A DNA stretch of 64,000 bases from the NCBI GenBank assembly GCA_023701285.1, contig JAMPXH010000004.1, forward strand, positions 1 through 64,000, given 5' to 3'. This DNA is from Candidatus Didemnitutus sp. (GTDB lineage Bacteria > Verrucomicrobiota > Verrucomicrobiia > Opitutales > Opitutaceae). The notes beneath the pieces were generated by a model. It saw only the letters and a program-made list of their open reading frames with translations. It did not search any database and was not told the DNA's origin. Made by a program: the position numbers and the translations under genes. This document shows positions 44,621-54,462 of the stretch, one piece after another; the first letter of the stretch is position 1; every line of letters begins with the position of its first letter.

Positions 44621-45901
44621 TTATTCGCCGAAGGGGTTGGCGGAGTGGCGCGGCTCCTTCGCCGGCAGGTAAATCGTGAAGCGGCTGCCTTCGCCGAGCT
44701 TGGTCTTCACGTGGATGAGGCCGCCGTGGTGGCGGACGAGGCGCGTGACGATGGCGAGGCCGAGGCCGGTGCCGGTCTGCGTCTTGGTGGTGAAGTAGGG
44801 CTCGAAGATACGCGAGAGCACGTCCTGCGGGATGCCGGGGCCCTGATCGAGGACCGAGACGGCGACGAGGGGCGGCTGGTTGGCGAAGGACTCGAGGTTG
44901 ATGTAGCGCTCTTCGGCGGTGTCGCGGAAGGTTTCGATCGGGAGCGGCTGTTCGTAGCGCTCGGCGGCGATCCAGACGGTCTGCGGGCGTTCGCTGCTCT
45001 GAAAGGCGTTCACCGTGAGGTTGAGCAGGATCTGGATGAGCTCGGTGCCGCCGATCTGGGCCGCGGCGTCGTGGTCGAGGTGCTTGGCCGAGAGCTTGCC
45101 GCCGCGCAGCGCCGGGTGGTTGCGCATGAGCGTGTGGACGTCGTCGATGACCTGGTTGACGGAGACCTCGGGGGCCTGCGCGCTGCGGCGGGCGACGAAG
45201 CGCAGGTAACGGCGCGTGATGGCGGCGCAGGTATTGACCTGCTTGGCGAGGAGGTTGACATCCTCGCGCACGGCTTGGAGGTCGGCGCCGTAGAGGGAAC
45301 CCACGGCTTCGAGCTTGTAGCGGAGGAGCTCGACGTAGCCGGTGATGACGGTGAGGGGGTTGTTGATGTCGTGCAGCGCGCCGGCGTAGATCTCGGTCGT
45401 GGTGCGGGACATTTCCTCCTTCACCGAGGCGTCGTTGAGCTGCTCGGTAAGGGCTTGGAGCCGCTCGGAGGTGGAGGAGACGGTCTCGGAGATGCGGCGA
45501 AGATGAAGGGCACGCGTGACGGCCTCTCGGATGGTGGAGAGGTCGAAGGGCTTGCTGAGGTAGTCGCAGGCGCCGAGGCGGAGGGCTTGGCGGGCGGTCT
45601 CGATCGTCTCATAGGCCGTGAGCATGATGACCTCGATGTGCGGGTCGATGGCCTTGAGGCCGCGGAGCACATCGATGCCGGACTTGCCCGCCATACGGAT
45701 GTCGAGAATGGCCAGCTGCACGGGATGACTGCGGGCGAACTCGAGCGCCTTGTCGCCGTTGTCGACCGCCTGGACGTTGAAGTCCTGGCGGAACACCATG
45801 CGCAGCGAGTGGCGCGGGCCCTCTTCGTCGTCGACGATGAGGAGCGTGGGCAACGTGGGCTGCAGGGCGGTGGCGGTGGGCGCGAGAGTGACGGCGGTCA
45901 T
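44621..45901 (-). CDS. Receiver-histidine kinase hybrid (PhcR-like architecture)
   Basis: Canonical receiver (TLLIVDDEEG, AILDIRM, SKPFD) followed by ALHDINNPLTVITGYVELL and GTGLGLAIV HATPase. Confidence 0.92.
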   Translation of the reverse strand: MTAVTLAPTATALQPTLPTLLIVDDEEGPRHSLRMVFRQDFNVQAVDNGDKALEFARSHPVQLAILDIRMAGKSGIDVLRGLKAIDPHIEVIMLTAYETIETARQALRLGACDYLSKPFDLSTIREAVTRALHLRRISETVSSTSERLQALTEQLNDASVKEEMSRTTTEIYAGALHDINNPLTVITGYVELLRYKLEAVGSLYGADLQAVREDVNLLAKQVNTCAAITRRYLRFVARRSAQAPEVSVNQVIDDVHTLMRNHPALRGGKLSAKHLDHDAAAQIGGTELIQILLNLTVNAFQSSERPQTVWIAAERYEQPLPIETFRDTAEERYINLESFANQPPLVAVSVLDQGPGIPQDVLSRIFEPYFTTKTQTGTGLGLAIVTRLVRHHGGLIHVKTKLGEGSRFTIYLPAKEPRHSANPFGE

Positions 45902-45928: not shown

Positions 45929-47149
45929 TTAAAACTTATAACCCAAGGAAAGCGATACGGCATTGATGGCATTGTCATAGGTGCCGTCGGCCGTGGTGCC
46001 GAGCAGGTTGGCGGGGCTGCCGCTGACGCGGCGCGTGCCGCCGTCGGCGTGCTGCAGCGCGAGGTCGAAGCTCAGGCGCTGCCCGCGGTAACCGAGGCCG
46101 GCCGAGTAGAAATGGCGGTCGCTGTCGGGCACGGCGGGCGTGTAGGTGGCGTCGGGCGTGGAATTGGCGGTGAAACAGTAGCCGACGCTGACGTTCCAGC
46201 CGTTGGCGAAGAAGCGCGTGGCGCCGAACTCGTAGAAGAAGCCGGATTCCCAGTCGAAGGGGAGCGGCTGGTTGCCCGAGGCCTTCTGCACGGTGACGGT
46301 GTTGAAGCGGTCCCAGCCGGTCCAGTCGACGTTGACCTCGAGGTTCCACTCCGGGGTGGGGCGGTAGGACCAGCCGGCGATGACGACGGCGGGGAACTCG
46401 AAGCGCGCGCTCGCGGGCTCGCTGGCGACGAGCGGCACGGTGGAGGAGGTGCCCTTGATCTTCACCGAGGTGCGGTGGGAATAGCTGAGGCCGAACTGGT
46501 GACGCTCGGACGCTTTCCAGAGCACGCCGAGGTTGGCGCCGATGGCGTCGCCGTCGCCCTCGAAGCGGAAGAGGTCGTTGGGCGCGAAGACGCCGAGGCG
46601 GCGGTTGAGGTCGGTCTCGACGCGGTTGTAGGTGACGCTGAGGCCGAGCGAAAGGGCGGGCGTGACCTGCCAGGCGCCGGTGAAATTGTAGGTGAGGTAG
46701 GTTTGCTCGTTCTTGAGCGCGAAGGTGCGGAGAACCGAGGCATCGGACCATTCCGTCTCGAGGCCGAAGGGCGCATAAACGGCGAAGCCGACGGCCCAAG
46801 GTGCGTCGCTGGGATTCCAGGTCGCGTAGAGCGAGGGCACGCTGACGTAGCTGTCGTCCATCGACGCGGTGCCGGCGGCGCCGGAATAATCCGACGAGAG
46901 CGAAAGATGGTAGAGGTTGCCCGAGAGCTGGAGGCCGGGGAGCTGGGTGATGCCGGCGGGGTTGTAGTAGAGGGCGCTGGGGTTGTCGGCGGTGGCGACG
47001 AAGGCGTTGCCGCGCGCGGTGGCGAAGGCGTCCTTGAAGCCGACGCGGGAGCCCGAGGCGAACGCCGCGGGCGAATGAAGCAAGGCGAGAGCCCCGCCGA
47101 GCAGGGCGCAGGCTCTGAAGGCGGGGTGAAAGAGGTGGACCGGGTTCAT
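45929..47149 (-). CDS. FadL/OMPP1/TodX-like outer membrane transporter
   Basis: GFKDAFATARGNAFVATADNPSALYYNPAGITQLPGLQLSGNLY. Confidence 0.93.
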   Translation of the reverse strand: MNPVHLFHPAFRACALLGGALALLHSPAAFASGSRVGFKDAFATARGNAFVATADNPSALYYNPAGITQLPGLQLSGNLYHLSLSSDYSGAAGTASMDDSYVSVPSLYATWNPSDAPWAVGFAVYAPFGLETEWSDASVLRTFALKNEQTYLTYNFTGAWQVTPALSLGLSVTYNRVETDLNRRLGVFAPNDLFRFEGDGDAIGANLGVLWKASERHQFGLSYSHRTSVKIKGTSSTVPLVASEPASARFEFPAVVIAGWSYRPTPEWNLEVNVDWTGWDRFNTVTVQKASGNQPLPFDWESGFFYEFGATRFFANGWNVSVGYCFTANSTPDATYTPAVPDSDRHFYSAGLGYRGQRLSFDLALQHADGGTRRVSGSPANLLGTTADGTYDNAINAVSLSLGYKF

Positions 47150-47151
47150 GC

Positions 47152-49164
47152 TTAGCGTGGGAGGGGCAACCGGATGGTGAGATCCGGGTCGGTCGGCTGG
47201 ACGCGCGGGTGCACGTCGAGCTTCCCGTGATGGGCTTCGATGACGCGCCGGGCGATGGTGAGGCCGAGGCCCACGCCCGTGTTGCGTGTCGTGAAGAAAG
47301 GTTCCGTGGCGCGGGGGGCGGCGTCGGGGGTGAAACCGCGGCCGCTGTCGGTGACTTGGATGACGAGCTCGGCGCGGCCGTCGTGGGTCGGCTCGGCGTT
47401 GAGCGCGACCGCGAGCCGGCGGGCGCCGTCGCCACCGGATTGGAGGCCGTTGAGGAAAATTTCGCGGAAGGCGTGCGCGAGGCTGGCGCGGTTGCAGCGC
47501 AGGACGACGGGCGGCAGCTCGCTGTGGATGTCGAGGTGCGCCGTGCCGCCGGCGTAGGCGCGGGATTGTTCGAAGCTGGTGCGGAGGAGGTCGTCGAGCG
47601 GGACGAGTTCCTCCGGCGGCTGGTCGGAGCGCGCGAGCAGGAGCATCTGATCGGTGAAGCGCTGGATGCGTTGCGTCTCGCGGTCGAGCGACTGCTTGAG
47701 GGAGTCGCGGAACTCGGGCTGCTCGATCTCGTTGGTGAAAAGTTGCGCGTGGGTCGTCAGCGGCACGAGGGAGTTGCGGATCTCGTGGGCAAAGCGGCGG
47801 GCGATGAGGCTGATGAGCTTGAGATTCGAGGACTCGATCTCCGCACGTTGGGCGGCGTGGATCTGGGTGAAGTCCTCGAGCAGGAGCAGCGCGGTTTGCG
47901 GGAGTTTGCCGCCCTGCGGGCGCAGGGGCACGAAGCTGACGCGGTAAACCCGTCCGCCGTCTGTGGCGGTGTGGTGGAAGAACGGGGCGAGGTCCGCGCC
48001 GCGTTCGATCACTTCGTGGAGGCGGGTGGCGATCTCGGGCGGCAGGTCGTGCACGTCGAGGTGGTCGGCCCCGGCGCCGCGGAGGAAGGTGATGATGGCG
48101 CGGTTGGCGTAGACGATCTGCTGCTGGGGCGTGGCCACGAGCGCGCCGACGGTCAGGCCGTTGAGCACGCTGCCAAAGAGGCGGTGGCTGCTGACGAGCT
48201 GGTGGTGGAGCCAGCTGTTTTTCACCGCGAGGCCGAGTTCCTCGAGCAAGTGGTAAACGAGGAGGAGTTCCTCGTCGCTGAATTCGCCGCCGGTGATGCG
48301 GCCGCCGAGCACGGCGACGCCGAGCGTGCGCTCGCGGTCGTTGACGGGGATGGCGACCTGGCCGCCGAGCACCTCGAACTCGCGGAGGATCTTCGGGTCG
48401 AGCGGCTGGGGATGTGCGCCGTGCGCGGCGCGGAGGATTTGCGGATAGACAGTGAGCTGGCGGCCCAGGCCGCTCTTGCGCGTGAGCGCGAAGCACTCGA
48501 CCAAGTCCGCGGGCACGCCCACGGCGGCGGCGCAGGGCAGCGACGCGGCAGGCAGGCGGACGCCGCCGGGGAGGGAGTCGGAGGCGGGGCTCTCGAGAAA
48601 GATGGCGATGCGCGAGAGGCCCACGACCTCACGCAACTTGAGCAGGAAGTGCTGCGTGAGCTGGCGGTAATCCAGCGAGTAGCCAAGCACCTGCGAGAAA
48701 TCGCGCAGCACGCCCAAGGCGGAGGAGAGCGCGGCGGCCTTGGAGTTGAGCGGGCTGGCTCCGGCCGGCGGCGTCACGTGGCCGGGTGCGGCGTGCGCGG
48801 CGCGCTGGGTGAGGCGGACGAGCTGCGCGGCGAGCGCGGCGGGTTCGATCGGCGGGAAGATCACGCCGTCAGCACCCGCGCCGACCAAGCCGGCTTGGGC
48901 GGTGGCCGGAGTGCCGGCGGGAGCGAGCACGACCAAGGCGAGACTGGGGGCGGAGGCGCGGGCCTCGACGAGTTCGGCGGTCAATTCTTCGCCGAGTTGC
49001 GCGGGCAGGAAAAGGCAGGTCTCGAAGGCTCCGGCGGCCAGGGCGCCGCGCGCTTCGGCGAGCTTGGCGCGGACGTGGATCTGGAAGTCTCCGGCGGACG
49101 AAAGCGCGGCGCTCAGCGGTTGGGCTTGAGCAGAATCGTCGGATATGAGGAGGAGCCGAGTCAC
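47152..49164 (-). CDS. Histidine kinase with degenerate N-terminal receiver, GAF and PAS-like regions
   Basis: RLLLISDDSAQAQPL...ETCLFLPAQLGEE; HEIRNSLVPLTTHAQLF; NTGVGLGLTIARRVIEAHHGKL. Confidence 0.88.
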   Translation of the reverse strand: MTRLLLISDDSAQAQPLSAALSSAGDFQIHVRAKLAEARGALAAGAFETCLFLPAQLGEELTAELVEARASAPSLALVVLAPAGTPATAQAGLVGAGADGVIFPPIEPAALAAQLVRLTQRAAHAAPGHVTPPAGASPLNSKAAALSSALGVLRDFSQVLGYSLDYRQLTQHFLLKLREVVGLSRIAIFLESPASDSLPGGVRLPAASLPCAAAVGVPADLVECFALTRKSGLGRQLTVYPQILRAAHGAHPQPLDPKILREFEVLGGQVAIPVNDRERTLGVAVLGGRITGGEFSDEELLLVYHLLEELGLAVKNSWLHHQLVSSHRLFGSVLNGLTVGALVATPQQQIVYANRAIITFLRGAGADHLDVHDLPPEIATRLHEVIERGADLAPFFHHTATDGGRVYRVSFVPLRPQGGKLPQTALLLLEDFTQIHAAQRAEIESSNLKLISLIARRFAHEIRNSLVPLTTHAQLFTNEIEQPEFRDSLKQSLDRETQRIQRFTDQMLLLARSDQPPEELVPLDDLLRTSFEQSRAYAGGTAHLDIHSELPPVVLRCNRASLAHAFREIFLNGLQSGGDGARRLAVALNAEPTHDGRAELVIQVTDSGRGFTPDAAPRATEPFFTTRNTGVGLGLTIARRVIEAHHGKLDVHPRVQPTDPDLTIRLPLPR

Positions 49165-49207
49165 TTCGGTCGTTGGGCGCCAACACCATTGCTCTCGGGC
49201 ATTTGAA

Positions 49208-49269
49208 GCAAGAGCGAAGTCCGGTGAACAACCCCGGAAATGTCCCTAGAAGCGGGACTTGCTCATTGC
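49208..49269. promoter_or_regulatory. Imperfect inverted repeat in divergent intergenic region
   Basis: gcaagagcgaagtcc (49208-49222) vs ggacttgctcattgc (49255-49269). Confidence 0.4.
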
Positions 49270-49316
49270 ATTCACTCCGCAAACCCCCATCAATCCGAAT
49301 TGGCGGGCCGATCACC

Positions 49317-51026
49317 ATGAGAGCCGATTCCTCCCCGGTGCAGGCGGGGTATATTCTGACCGATTTCGTGCGATTTCCCAATCGCGCAGGGCTGCACATC
49401 GCCGCCTGCGTGGATTATTTCGGCCCTAGCCTCGATCCGCAGCGCCCGTGGGCGGTGGTGGCACCGAAGTTCGGCGAGACGAAGAAAAACGCGCTGCAAC
49501 TCGCCTACTATCTCGCGGCGAACGGCATGAACGTGCTGCGCTTCGACCACACCAACCACGTGGGTGAGAGCGCGGGCGACCAGACCTTCTTCACCCTCTC
49601 GAGCGGCGCGGGCGACCTCATCTCCTGCGGCGACTACCTCGAGCAGACGCACGGCGCCCGGCACTATACGCTCGTGGCCAACAGCCTTTCCGCGCGCACC
49701 GCGATCCGCGCCGCCGCCGGCGATCCGCGCATCCGGCACCTCGTGTGTCTCGTGGGCGTGGTCAATCTCCGGCACACGCTGGATCAGGTCTATCGCGACG
49801 ATCTGGTCGGCGGCCACATTGCCGGGAAACGCTGGGGCATCGGCGACATGCTCGGCGTGGAGATGGATTACGACGGGTTCCTGCGTTCCGCGGTGGAGGA
49901 CGAGATGCACGATCTCGCCACGACGCAGGCGGACTTGGCGAAGAGCGAGGCGTTCGTCTCGTTCTTCTCCGGCGAGCGCGACACCTGGGTGTCGCTGGCG
50001 GACGTCGATGCGGTGCTGCGCGGCCGGCCGAACGCGCGCCTGACGCCGATCCCGGGCGCGATGCACGAACTGCGCGAGAACGCGGCCGTGGCGGAGAAGG
50101 CCTTCCGCGACATCGTGGCCACCTGTGTCGCGCAGGTGCGCGGCCTGCCGGCGGAGGCGGTCGAGCTCAAGCTGCCGGACAAGCGCGAGCTCATGCGCCA
50201 GAACCGCACCGAACGCGAGCGGCTGCGCCTCACGGTGCGGAATCCGCAGGACGAACGCGATTTCTGGGCGAAGTATCTCGAGAAATACCGCCTCATGCAG
50301 AGCGTCGACGACTACCAGAGCTACCTCAGCCTGGTCGGCCGCCTGCTCGGCGAGATCCGGCCGCGCGATACGTTGCTCGATGCGGGTTGCGGCAACGGGC
50401 TCTTCGGCATGTGGGTGCTGCGCACGCTGCTCGAACGCGCGCAGCAGGCGGAGTCGCCGCCGGTCTACGTCGGGCTCGACCTCACGCTCGAAGGCCTGCG
50501 CGATGCGCTCGATATGCACAGCGGTTACTCGCTGGAACACCGCCGCGGACCCGAGGCCCGCGCAGGGGAATTCATCGGGTTGCTCTACGGGCAGACCGAT
50601 CTCGACACCTGGGGCATGCCGGCCTCGGAGGTGCCCGAGCTGCTGGTGTTCGCCGACAACACCTTCGACAAGATCTGCTGCAGCCTCGTGCTGTCGTATC
50701 TGAACCGTCCGGAGGTCGTGCTGGCCGAGCTTTATCGGGTGATGCGGCCCGGCGGCCGCATCGTGGTGTCGAGCATGAAGCCGTTCTGCGACATGTCGGA
50801 GATCTACCGCGACTTCATGGATCAACGCATCAGCGAATCCGAGCTGGAGTCCGGGCGCGATCTGTTGCGCGCGGCGGGCAAGATCCGGCTGAAGGAGGAG
50901 CAGGGATTCTATGTTTTCTTCTCGGGCGAAGAGTTGAGCGCGTTGCTGACCGGGGCGGGCTTCCGGCATTGCGCGACGCATCTGTCGTTCGGCGGGCAGG
51001 CGGCGGTGGCGGTGGCTGAGAAATGA
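49317..51026 (+). CDS. LuxD-like acyltransferase/thioesterase fused to SAM-dependent methyltransferase
   Basis: LuxD-type VANSLSAR, VGVVNLRHTLDQ, RDTWVSLADV, GAMHELREN; then LLDAGCGNGLFGMWVL and YRVMRPGGRIVVSSMK. Confidence 0.88.
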   Translation: MRADSSPVQAGYILTDFVRFPNRAGLHIAACVDYFGPSLDPQRPWAVVAPKFGETKKNALQLAYYLAANGMNVLRFDHTNHVGESAGDQTFFTLSSGAGDLISCGDYLEQTHGARHYTLVANSLSARTAIRAAAGDPRIRHLVCLVGVVNLRHTLDQVYRDDLVGGHIAGKRWGIGDMLGVEMDYDGFLRSAVEDEMHDLATTQADLAKSEAFVSFFSGERDTWVSLADVDAVLRGRPNARLTPIPGAMHELRENAAVAEKAFRDIVATCVAQVRGLPAEAVELKLPDKRELMRQNRTERERLRLTVRNPQDERDFWAKYLEKYRLMQSVDDYQSYLSLVGRLLGEIRPRDTLLDAGCGNGLFGMWVLRTLLERAQQAESPPVYVGLDLTLEGLRDALDMHSGYSLEHRRGPEARAGEFIGLLYGQTDLDTWGMPASEVPELLVFADNTFDKICCSLVLSYLNRPEVVLAELYRVMRPGGRIVVSSMKPFCDMSEIYRDFMDQRISESELESGRDLLRAAGKIRLKEEQGFYVFFSGEELSALLTGAGFRHCATHLSFGGQAAVAVAEK

Positions 51027-53122
51027 TCTTCTACTGCGTCCTCACCTCCGCGATCAACACGCTCGCCAGCGTCGTGTTGGCGCTGATGGTTTACTGGAAG
51101 AAGCGTCACGGTCCGGCGAACGCGGCTTTCTCCTGGTTCGCGCTGACGGGCGCACTGTGGTCGGCGCAGTATTTTTTGTGGCAGACGGCGCCGGATGCGA
51201 AGGAGGCGTTGTTCTACAGCCGGCTGCTCACGGCGGCGGCGATCCTCATCCCGGTGGCGTATTATCAGTTCGTGCTGCGGTTGCTCGGCAGCACCCGGCC
51301 GCGGCAGATTTTGTTCGGCTACGGCATGGTGTTGGTGCTGGCGATCCTCTCGGTGACGACCGATCTGCTCGTCGTCGGCGTCGAGCAGAAGGGCGTGTTC
51401 CCGCACTGGCCGGTGCCGGGGGCGCTGTATCCGGTGTATCTGCTGGTGTTCTTCGCCTACACCTCGACGCCGCTCGTGCTGCTCGTGCTGGGTTACCGGC
51501 GGGCGCAGGGGTTGGTGCGCAACCAGCTGCGGTTCGTGATCCTCGGCACCGCGGTGGGCTTCATGGGCGGCGCCACGAATTTCTTCCTCTGGTATGACGT
51601 GCCGATCCCGCCGATCGGCAACGGCTTCGTGGCCTTCTACGTCGTGGGCGTGGGCTACGCGATCCTGCGGTTCCGGCTGATGGAGTTCAACCTGCTCACG
51701 GCGCGCCTCTCGGCTTACACGGCCATCATCCTCGTGCTGGCGGCGCTGCTGCCCGCCATCATGCGCGGGCTGGCGCACCTCAACGTCCCCACCGTGCCGC
51801 CGATCGGCTTCTGGCCGCTGTTTTTCACCAGCGTGGCTGTGACGGTCGTGCTCTTCGGGCTCATCCCCGAACTGCGCCGGCGCATCGATGCGTTGCTGGA
51901 ACAGCGCGTGCTCGGCGACCAGCTGGCGAACCGCGCGCTGCTCCGCTCGCTCGCGGCGAAGATCAGCTCCTCGCAGGACGAGGCGGCGATGTTCCGCGAG
52001 GTCGCGGCGAACGTGGCCGAGGCGCTGCACGTGGCGCAGGTCGCGCTCTACACGCGCACGGAATACGAGACGGATTTCACCCGCCGGGCCTCGGTGGGCA
52101 ACGACCGCGGTCCGGCCTCGCTGCCCGAGGTGTCGGTGCTCATGCAGACGCTGAAGTCGGCCGGGCGCGGCCTGTTGCTCGACGAGCTGGTGCACACGTT
52201 GGTCGGCGAGCGCCGGGCCTATTTCGCCGATCTCCGCCGGCGGCACGGACTCGAGCTGCTGGTGCCGGTCATCGGCGACAATTTCTTCTACGGCTGCATC
52301 GCGCTCGGGCCGCGGCCCGGCAACTCGCTGTTCACCGACATCGACGTGTCGCTGCTGGAGGCCGTCGGCCTGCAGATCGGGCTGAACCTCCGCGCCCGCC
52401 AGCTGGAGCGCCACTCCAGCCAGACGGAGAAGCTCATCGCCCTCGGCACGCTGGCGGCCGGCCTCGCGCACGAGTTGCGCAACCCGCTGACCTCGATCCA
52501 GACCTTCTCCGCGCTGTTGCGCGAGAACCGGCCCGACGTGGAGTCATTGCAGGAATTCAGCGGCGTGGTGCAGCGTGACGTGAATCGCATCGCCAGCATC
52601 GTCGACAACGTGGCGGCCTTCGCGGAGAGCAACAAGGTGGAGATGACCGCGGTGAATGTCGCCGACGTGCTGCGCACCGTCGTGGAGATCGTGCGTCCGG
52701 AGATCCAGCGCACGGGCGCGGTGGTGGAGCTGCCGGCCGCACGCGGCCTGCTGGTGCGGGGCAACCACAGCCAGTTGCTGCAGGTCTTTCTCAACCTGGT
52801 GCAGAACGCGCTGCAGGCGCTCGACGGCCGGTCCGAGCCGCGCCTGCGCCTCGGGCTCGAAGCGCGCGAGACGGCCGGTGCGCCGGCGCTCGTCTGCGTG
52901 AGCGTGAGCGACAACGGCCCGGGCATCGATCCGGCGCTCCTGCCGCGCATCTTCGAGCCATTCACGACCACCAAGTCGACCGGCGACCGCCGCGGCAAGC
53001 ACGGCATGGGTCTCGGGCTCGCCATCGTGAAACGCATCGTGCAACACCACCAAGGCGAGATCCACGTGACCAGCCAGCCCGGGCGCGGCACCACGTTCCG
53101 CGTCTTCTTTCCGCATTCCTGA
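51023..53122 (+). CDS. Multi-TM N-terminal, GAF-containing sensor histidine kinase
   Basis: About 8 TM segments, GAF-like region, AAGLAHELRNPLTSIQTFSALL, GMGLGLAIVKRIV; ATGA overlap with upstream fusion gene. Confidence 0.92.
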   Translation: MIFYCVLTSAINTLASVVLALMVYWKKRHGPANAAFSWFALTGALWSAQYFLWQTAPDAKEALFYSRLLTAAAILIPVAYYQFVLRLLGSTRPRQILFGYGMVLVLAILSVTTDLLVVGVEQKGVFPHWPVPGALYPVYLLVFFAYTSTPLVLLVLGYRRAQGLVRNQLRFVILGTAVGFMGGATNFFLWYDVPIPPIGNGFVAFYVVGVGYAILRFRLMEFNLLTARLSAYTAIILVLAALLPAIMRGLAHLNVPTVPPIGFWPLFFTSVAVTVVLFGLIPELRRRIDALLEQRVLGDQLANRALLRSLAAKISSSQDEAAMFREVAANVAEALHVAQVALYTRTEYETDFTRRASVGNDRGPASLPEVSVLMQTLKSAGRGLLLDELVHTLVGERRAYFADLRRRHGLELLVPVIGDNFFYGCIALGPRPGNSLFTDIDVSLLEAVGLQIGLNLRARQLERHSSQTEKLIALGTLAAGLAHELRNPLTSIQTFSALLRENRPDVESLQEFSGVVQRDVNRIASIVDNVAAFAESNKVEMTAVNVADVLRTVVEIVRPEIQRTGAVVELPAARGLLVRGNHSQLLQVFLNLVQNALQALDGRSEPRLRLGLEARETAGAPALVCVSVSDNGPGIDPALLPRIFEPFTTTKSTGDRRGKHGMGLGLAIVKRIVQHHQGEIHVTSQPGRGTTFRVFFPHS

Positions 53123-54462
53123 TGAGTATCGCCCCTCCCATCCTCCTCGATGGTCCCGCCGCCCTGCGGGCGCTGGCGCGGGCTTTCGCCCAGTTCGATC
53201 AGTTCGACCGGTTCGTCGGCGGCCTGCAGGCCGCGCTCGAACGGGCCCCGGCCTTCGAGCAGGTGCGCATCCGGCTCAATCGCGACTTGGCCGAAGGCAC
53301 GGAGCGCTTCCGCGCCGCGGGGCTCGCGGTGCCGTTGCTGGGTGACACGCCACTGGGCGCGTTGCAGGTCGGCTCGAACGGCGAGCGCCGGCAATTCGGC
53401 GCCGAGGATCTGCACCTGCTGGCGGGTCTGGCGGATTTCCTCGGGGCGGTGCTGACGCAGGCGCAACGCCTGCAGGATGCCGCCCGCAGCCGCGAGCTGT
53501 TGCGGTTGCTGCTCAATCAGGCCCCGGTTGGCATCGCCGCCTACGGTTGCGATCGCCGGCCGCTCGTGGCCAACGAGTCCGCGATCCGCTGGCTGGGTGC
53601 GGCGGCGCTGCCGTTCGACGAAATCGAGACGGGGCAGGAGGGCTTCCACCTCCGCTCCGGCGGCAAGCTAATCTACGGCGAGGCACGGCGGGTGAACGAC
53701 GTCCCGGGCGGCGCCTGGGTCGTGGTGTTGCAGGATCTGACGCCTGAGCAGGGACGTTTGCTCGAGGGCATGGAGCGCGAGGTGTTCCGCGCGCGGGCCG
53801 AGGGTGGGCATTGTGCGGTGGCGCTCGTCGAGAGCCTCGACCAACGCAATGGCGCGCTGCGGCGCCTGCCGGCGGTGCGCGCCCTGTTGCGGCAGGGCGA
53901 GCAGGCGGGGCCTTACGATGCGAACCGCGTCGGGCTCGTGCTGGCCGACCGCGGACTGGCGCTGCGCACACGCCTGCGGAAAATGCGCGAGATCTTCGCC
54001 GGGCTGCCGGAGTTGCGGCTGGGTTACGCGGAACTGGAGCGCGACGGACGCGAGCCGGCGTTGCTGTTGCAGGCGGCACTGCAACGCTGGGGACGCTACG
54101 ACGAGTTGCTGCGGCCCTGCCTGCTGGTGCAGGAAGGAAATCCCGGCGTCGCGGCCACGCTCGTGATGGTGCTCGGGCGGCAGTTCAAGGTCGTGACCTC
54201 CGCGAGCGCGGAGCAGACGCGCGAACAGCTGGCGACGGAGCGTTTCGAGGGCTTCATCGCGGAGCTCGAGCCGCGCAACGGTCCGGGGGGGGCGGAAATG
54301 GTCCGTCTCGCGCAATCGCTCCAACCGGGCATCCGCACCTTCCTCACGACGATCCAGCCGGTTGGCGTGGAGGCGTTGGCGGGCACGGATGCGGTGGTGA
54401 TCGAGAAACCCTTCGACGTCGCCCGGCTCACGGCGCTCGTGCAGGCGCGGATGGCCGAGTGA
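53122..54462 (+). CDS. GAF/PAS protein with C-terminal pseudo-receiver domain
   Basis: GAF-like N-terminus, PAS-like LLNQAPVGIAAYGCDRRPLVANESAIRWLG, receiver-like RPCLLVQEGNPG...GFIAELEPRNGPGG...VVIEKPFDV. Confidence 0.75.
   Translation: MSIAPPILLDGPAALRALARAFAQFDQFDRFVGGLQAALERAPAFEQVRIRLNRDLAEGTERFRAAGLAVPLLGDTPLGALQVGSNGERRQFGAEDLHLLAGLADFLGAVLTQAQRLQDAARSRELLRLLLNQAPVGIAAYGCDRRPLVANESAIRWLGAAALPFDEIETGQEGFHLRSGGKLIYGEARRVNDVPGGAWVVVLQDLTPEQGRLLEGMEREVFRARAEGGHCAVALVESLDQRNGALRRLPAVRALLRQGEQAGPYDANRVGLVLADRGLALRTRLRKMREIFAGLPELRLGYAELERDGREPALLLQAALQRWGRYDELLRPCLLVQEGNPGVAATLVMVLGRQFKVVTSASAEQTREQLATERFEGFIAELEPRNGPGGAEMVRLAQSLQPGIRTFLTTIQPVGVEALAGTDAVVIEKPFDVARLTALVQARMAE

Follow-up and report, generated by a model that had tools for sequence, protein, structure and literature searches.

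A thioesterase–methyltransferase fusion and its neighbouring membrane kinase as a probable fatty-acid methyl ester signalling system in Verrucomicrobiota

In the agr (AgrBDC) and ComQXP systems of Firmicutes, the kinase half of the receptor is conserved, while its sensor half diverges and is exchanged jointly with the synthase. In the RpfF/RpfC/RpfG system, an acyl-acyl carrier protein (acyl-ACP) thioesterase activity leads to a fatty-acid diffusible signal factor, which is sensed by a membrane kinase. In Ralstonia, the methyltransferase PhcB makes the Phc signals, which are methyl 3-hydroxymyristate and methyl 3-hydroxypalmitate, and the kinase PhcS senses them (PMC8578825, PMC11960443). Two further proteins, PhcR (receiver and kinase) and PhcQ (receiver), have no DNA-binding domain, and the sequences of PhcB and PhcS cluster by signal type while those of PhcR and PhcQ cluster by phylotype (PMC8578825). 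We analysed a stretch of 64,000 nucleotides from Candidatus Didemnitutus sp. (GenBank assembly GCA_023701285.1, contig JAMPXH010000004.1, positions 1 to 64,000 of the forward strand), referred to below as the window, in which a fusion of a LuxD-family thioesterase with a methyltransferase, here named FUS, is encoded beside a membrane histidine kinase, HK7TM. As in Ralstonia PhcBSRQ, the gene of an S-adenosylmethionine (SAM) methyltransferase adjoins that of a membrane histidine kinase. FUS and HK7TM probably form a cell-to-cell signalling system based on fatty-acid methyl esters, and no report of a system of such kind was found for this bacterial group. The two features are:

49317..51026, plus strand: FUS, LuxD-family acyl-ACP thioesterase (amino acids ~45-300) joined to a class I SAM methyltransferase (amino acids ~330-569)
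51023..53122, plus strand: HK7TM, seven-transmembrane (7TM) histidine kinase, proposed signal receptor (PhcS-like role), with HisKA_7TM (PF16927) at amino acids 13-221, GAF at amino acids 322-455, HisKA (H483) and HATPase_c

Shared history of the enzyme and the sensor half

The synthase-receptor link between FUS and HK7TM is well supported by the comparison of FUS loci with one another. Distances were correlated over 27 loci with the divergence of two other proteins of the cluster removed, namely the soluble kinase HK2 and the receiver-kinase RRHK, and evaluated by Mantel-type permutation. FUS diverges together with the 7TM domain (partial r = 0.79, permutation p ≤ 0.0005), and both of its halves take part, the values being 0.72 for the LuxD half and 0.75 for the methyltransferase half. 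The partial r of FUS is 0.18 with the kinase domain of HK7TM, 0.15 with GAFREC, the next protein of the cluster, and 0.01 with the FadL transporter, while the sensor of HK7TM and its own kinase domain, encoded in the same open reading frame, give 0.21. The same pattern is seen when locus L032 is compared with the window: RRHK (88% identity), HK2 (74%), the kinase domain of HK7TM (73%) and GAFREC (66%) are conserved, whereas FUS (50%), the 7TM domain (39%), the segment that follows it (12%) and the GAF domain (28%) have diverged.

Sliding windows along pairs of loci locate the limits of the shared segment. The HK2 tree makes sisters of loci L039 and L060, whose FadL and HK2 proteins are mostly 80-90% identical in amino acids; the identity is ~50% through FUS and ~35% through the sensor, and it is back to 80-90% at HisKA. 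In these parts L060 instead resembles L032, with ~80% in FUS and ~70% in the sensor; the DNA of the loci was compared as well. Lineages have thus exchanged a matched block that consists of FUS and only the sensor half of HK7TM, and whose boundary lies just before HisKA, at about amino acid 455. Such an exchange is the hallmark of a synthase paired with its receptor.

Phylogenetic trees, made as quick searches, lead to the same picture. Two types, defined by sequence and not by signal, were first recognised in the FUS and sensor data and only then put to the test with the other genes: type A comprises the window, L038, L039, L040, L042 and L072, and type B comprises 11 loci, among them L060. 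Type A is a single clade in the FUS tree (support 100) and in the sensor tree (99), and both types are clades in these trees and likewise in separate trees of the LuxD half and the methyltransferase half. A type A clade is rejected by HK2 (approximately unbiased, AU, test, p = 4e-5), by the kinase domain (8e-4), by RRHK and by FadL, and a type B clade is rejected by HK2 (9e-5) and the kinase domain (2e-11). Conversely, the sisterhood of L039 and L060 that HK2 supports is rejected by FUS (6e-33) and by the sensor (8e-39). At least four changes of type A are required on the HK2 tree, and no supported mismatch between FUS and sensor was found in 23 loci. What has been exchanged and has diverged jointly with FUS is the sensor half only.

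A mismatch considered for L043 was not borne out, as the FUS tree rejects its joining type A (p 4e-5) and the sensor tree does not reject the partners given by the FUS tree (p 0.28). Within type B, the loci L051 and L053 have near-identical HK2 (branches ~0.01) and strongly different FUS and sensor, which reads as a block exchange inside that type.

Domains, catalytic residues and distribution of the fusion

The open reading frame of FUS spans exactly 49317-51026 of the plus strand, begins with ATG and is intact over 569 amino acids, and its homologues have their start codon at the same residue. A preliminary description, made from the sequence alone, had read the product as a LuxD-like domain with a Ser-Asp-His triad followed by a class I SAM methyltransferase; profile searches and structure prediction agree with it on all three points. 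Amino acids 47-298 match Acyl_transf_2 (PF02273) with 88.5 bits (E 6e-25, cut-off 20.3), and the top sequence match in the PDB is 1THT, the myristoyl-ACP thioesterase LuxD of V. harveyi (E 1e-22, and E 5e-33 with a profile of the FUS family). Both domains are confidently predicted in the AlphaFold2 model (predicted local distance difference test, pLDDT, 88.9; predicted template modelling score, pTM, 0.85), for which 1THT is also the best Foldseek hit in the PDB (E 1.5e-16, target-normalised TM 0.85). Sequence alignment places S123, D222 and H250 of FUS on S114, D211 and H241 of 1THT, and DSSP on the model puts them after strands 117-122, 213-219 and 240-245, the usual places in alpha/beta-hydrolases. 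Asp222 and His250 are invariant in 40/40 homologues, and Ser123 in the 39/39 that have letters at that column. FUS carries a Ser123-Asp222-His250 triad, whose geometry is predicted from the fold and the alignment.

Regarding the C-terminal half, amino acids 336-550 match Methyltransf_23, _11, _31 and _12, each above its cut-off (45.7 bits against PF13489, cut-off 27), and the SAM motif D355-x-GCGxG and the acidic residue after strand 2 (D/E388) are both kept in 40/40 homologues. FUS is thus confirmed as a class I SAM-dependent methyltransferase fused to a LuxD-family thioesterase domain, each with complete catalytic motifs. The fusion is neither a product of chance nor an assembly artefact, because both domains are intact in 38 species-level genomes, at identities down to 38%.

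The LuxD hallmarks pointed out in the preliminary description hold for the family and the triad, and do not extend to LuxD in the strict sense: the score against the NCBIfam LuxD equivalog is 86.5 bits, below the cut-off of 420 for orthology. Judged by these profiles, FUS belongs to the LuxD superfamily and is not a LuxD orthologue or a bioluminescence enzyme. A role in bioluminescence is very unlikely because neither luxC nor luxE gave a match in the genome at E ≤ 0.001 (assembly 95% complete). A link to exosortase/PEP-CTERM was dropped as well, given the scores of the hydrolase-2 model (15.7 against 202.75) and the PrsK model (111 against 300).

Among 84,980 prokaryotic species genomes, a scan that relied on two peptide patterns, and so may miss remote relatives, gave 38 full-length fusions. 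All 38 are titled Opitutia, Opitutaceae, Puniceicoccaceae or unclassified Verrucomicrobiota, the nearest named relative being L038 (Candidatus Didemnitutus, 98% identical). Among sampled whole genomes, FUS is present in 6/384 of the class and 6/388 of the phylum, all of the same order; the locus is, as far as seen, confined to one order of Verrucomicrobiota. A candidate from Actinomycetes (L076) proved to be a 29% match to the LuxD domain alone, with no fusion, and plasmid-borne homologues were separate generic acyltransferase or methyltransferase matches, again with no fusion and with no match from Burkholderiales. One of the carriers, IMCC26134 (L065), has a complete genome.

The gene cluster and its divergent intergenic region

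The other features of the cluster, from the 3' side of HK7TM to the divergent genes, are the following:

53122..54462, plus strand: GAFREC, GAF/PAS with a C-terminal degenerate receiver, proposed PhcQ-like role; Glu383 at the phospho-Asp position, K429 conserved
49165..49316, no strand assigned: divergent intergenic region, 152 bp, conserved core GAAGCAAG...GACTTGCTCATTGCAT
47152..49164, minus strand: HK2, soluble histidine kinase divergent from FUS; degenerate receiver-like N-terminus, GAF, PAS, HisKA (H460), HATPase_c
45929..47152, minus strand: FadL/TodX-family outer-membrane transporter (PF03349, E 3e-50), candidate channel for a hydrophobic signal
44621..45901, minus strand: RRHK, receiver (D67), HisKA (H177) and HATPase_c, PhcR-like architecture; no DNA-binding domain

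The FUS and HK7TM genes overlap by 4 bases, and HK7TM lies immediately 3' of FUS in 38/38 loci. The cluster is conserved, with GAFREC present in all 31 loci having enough sequence, HK2 divergent from FUS in 36 of 37, and RRHK and FadL linked in 31 and 26, respectively, of the 33 loci whose upstream sequence is long enough; among the 38, RmuC, ABC and SurE genes flank some loci and not others. In Puniceicoccaceae, RRHK has been relocated 3' of GAFREC, still within the cluster. An independent check of the cluster is provided by GAFREC itself: a search with this protein only, in 273 genomes of the order, gave nine further genomes with clear matches, and the FUS profile found full-length FUS in 9/9 of them, mostly on the same contig and ~2-4 kb away. 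This sensory cluster and the joint exchange of enzyme and sensor had escaped the preliminary description, of which the domains, the triad and the idea that one polypeptide could release an acyl chain and methylate it are supported.

The Pfam GAF/PAS matches of GAFREC are sub-threshold, and its amino acids 325-446 align with the receiver of RRHK with an hhalign probability of 98.8%. Its phospho-site (residue 383, window positions 54268-54270) is Glu in the window, and over 31 loci it is Glu in 16 and Asp in 14; the lysine of the KPF motif is invariant in the window and 30 homologues. Given the residues at this site, the receiver of some lineages may be locked in a state that mimics phosphorylation.

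Two loci depart from the common layout. In L037:5107-7520 (G346, a genome from the family of the window genome), only the last ~107 residues of FUS are left, with a gene upstream that we take, from reading its sequence, to be rlmN-like, and HK7TM (51%) and GAFREC (41%) are intact beside the remnant; it is possibly a receiver-only remnant that would listen without producing a signal. L075:1-12548 is the sole locus that has 10 kb upstream yet no HK2, FadL or RRHK beside FUS, and its FUS frame is apparently shifted at about residue 170-180.

The region 49165-49316 between FUS and HK2 is probably a shared promoter/operator. No consensus match to sigma70-type promoters was found there, and terminator-like sites were not clearly more than in shuffled sequence. 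A second version of the intergenic core, with TCAATCGCAAAGTG, occurs in L040, L041, L042, L072, L062, L066 and L049, with a near copy in L067; its distribution does not follow types A and B. No LysR gene was seen in the cluster, and no search for a PhcA regulator was made.

Proposed mechanism, alternatives and related systems

We think, with a probability of roughly two in three, that FUS synthesises the signal, a fatty-acid methyl ester, of a locus for quorum sensing (or self-sensing). We infer the substrate and its chain length, the carboxyl methylation, the export and uptake, the binding by HK7TM, the order of the phosphorelay and the output. The LuxD-like domain would hydrolyse a specific acyl-ACP, probably of medium to long chain and perhaps 3-hydroxylated, and the fused methyltransferase would transfer a methyl group of SAM to the carboxylate thus released, so that the product would be a fatty-acid methyl ester. 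This ester would exit the cell and come back, possibly via the co-encoded FadL porin, and would be bound by the 7TM and GAF half of HK7TM; phosphoryl groups would then flow via RRHK, GAFREC and HK2 to an output encoded outside the cluster. FadL is a plausible signal channel because a FadL of Sinorhizobium takes up long-chain acyl-homoserine lactones (AHLs) (PMC9938287). The most fitting description of the locus is fatty-acid methyl ester quorum sensing in a variant form, in which the synthase is a fusion of a thioesterase and a methyltransferase. Moreover, we lean towards seeing in it an undescribed quorum-sensing family of Verrucomicrobiota, in which one polypeptide would perform acyl-ACP release and carboxyl methylation, and species would change signal type through recombination of the synthase together with the sensor half alone of the 7TM kinase.

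Four observations weigh against this proposal. The methyltransferase half matches generic families, and the model of the fatty-acid O-methyltransferase Mtf2 gives a weak 18.7 bits (cut-off 400). The cluster encodes no transcriptional output regulator. FadL is missing from 7/33 loci, given which it would be either not essential or encoded elsewhere. Finally, FUS and the sensor are adjacent, one block holds both, and linkage could contribute to their shared history.

The alternative that survives best, although in our opinion an unlikely one, is that HK7TM does bind the product of FUS, but that this product is something other than a fatty-acid methyl ester; it might be an O-methylated hydroxy-acid, or a polar acceptor that is methylated and that the LuxD domain acylates. 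The synthase-receptor signature is independent of the chemistry, the generic methyltransferase matches fit this view, and LuxD-type enzymes can transfer the acyl group to acceptors besides water. However, the simplest products of a chain that combines thioesterase and methyltransferase, encoded close to FadL, are a carboxylic acid and the methyl ester of that acid; BioC and LahSB, which we take to be carboxyl methyltransferases, are among the weak matches of the methyltransferase half, and the cluster has no second gene that would supply a substrate.

It is quite improbable that the locus serves lipid homeostasis, sensing environmental or membrane fatty acids via FadL, with FUS as a metabolic or detoxifying enzyme under control of the kinases. 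FadL is found in most loci, several of the kinases have GAF/PAS domains, and FUS shares an operon with its putative regulator, but such a role predicts neither a matched-block exchange of the enzyme and the sensor half that ends within the kinase gene nor the lack of co-divergence between FUS and FadL (partial r 0.01). Linkage alone, by which contiguous genes with a 4-base overlap would have moved on one DNA segment without functional pairing, is hardly credible in view of the HK2 tree, on which the type label changes at least four times while no supported mismatch is seen in 23 loci, the recurrence of the exchange boundary at the start of the kinase domain and, as the strongest argument, the decoupling (0.21) of sensor and kinase, which lie closer still within one gene.

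If methyl ester signalling by FUS and HK7TM is true, the fatty-acid methyl ester language would reach beyond the Ralstonia group, and there would be a natural single-enzyme route from acyl-ACP to a methyl-ester signal. A ligand class would be assigned to a HisKA_7TM receptor, and types A and B would be ready signal-type pairs, with natural chimera junctions, for tests of synthase-receptor specificity. Our literature search found no work on quorum-sensing autoinducers in Opitutaceae, and the few matches for Verrucomicrobia named the phylum just in passing.

Among the described systems, agr (AgrBDC) and ComQXP resemble the FUS locus in that synthase and sensor half are exchanged together, whereas their signals are peptides and their genes are unrelated. 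The Rpf system shares with the proposal for FUS and HK7TM a thioesterase-derived fatty-acid signal and a membrane kinase; however, RpfF has a crotonase fold, its signal is not a methyl ester, and the regulators bear no relation to those of the FUS locus. LuxD (1THT, PF02273) has the same Pfam family, fold and aligned S114/D211/H241 triad as FUS, which differs in being ~25% identical, in its fusion to a methyltransferase and in belonging to a genome with no luxC or luxE. The likeness to Ralstonia PhcBSRQ is broader: RRHK resembles PhcR and GAFREC resembles PhcQ, all of them without DNA-binding domains, and FUS and the sensor group by type while RRHK and HK2 follow the organism, as PhcR and PhcQ do. 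On the other hand, none of the 38 full-length homologues has a stand-alone methyltransferase, this domain being joined in each of them to a LuxD-like thioesterase, the FUS locus adds the soluble kinase HK2, usually FadL, and a divergent layout, and its hosts are Verrucomicrobiota. In our opinion, the best reading by analogy, based not on sequence homology but on architecture and evolutionary pattern, is that the FUS locus works like Ralstonia PhcBSRQ.
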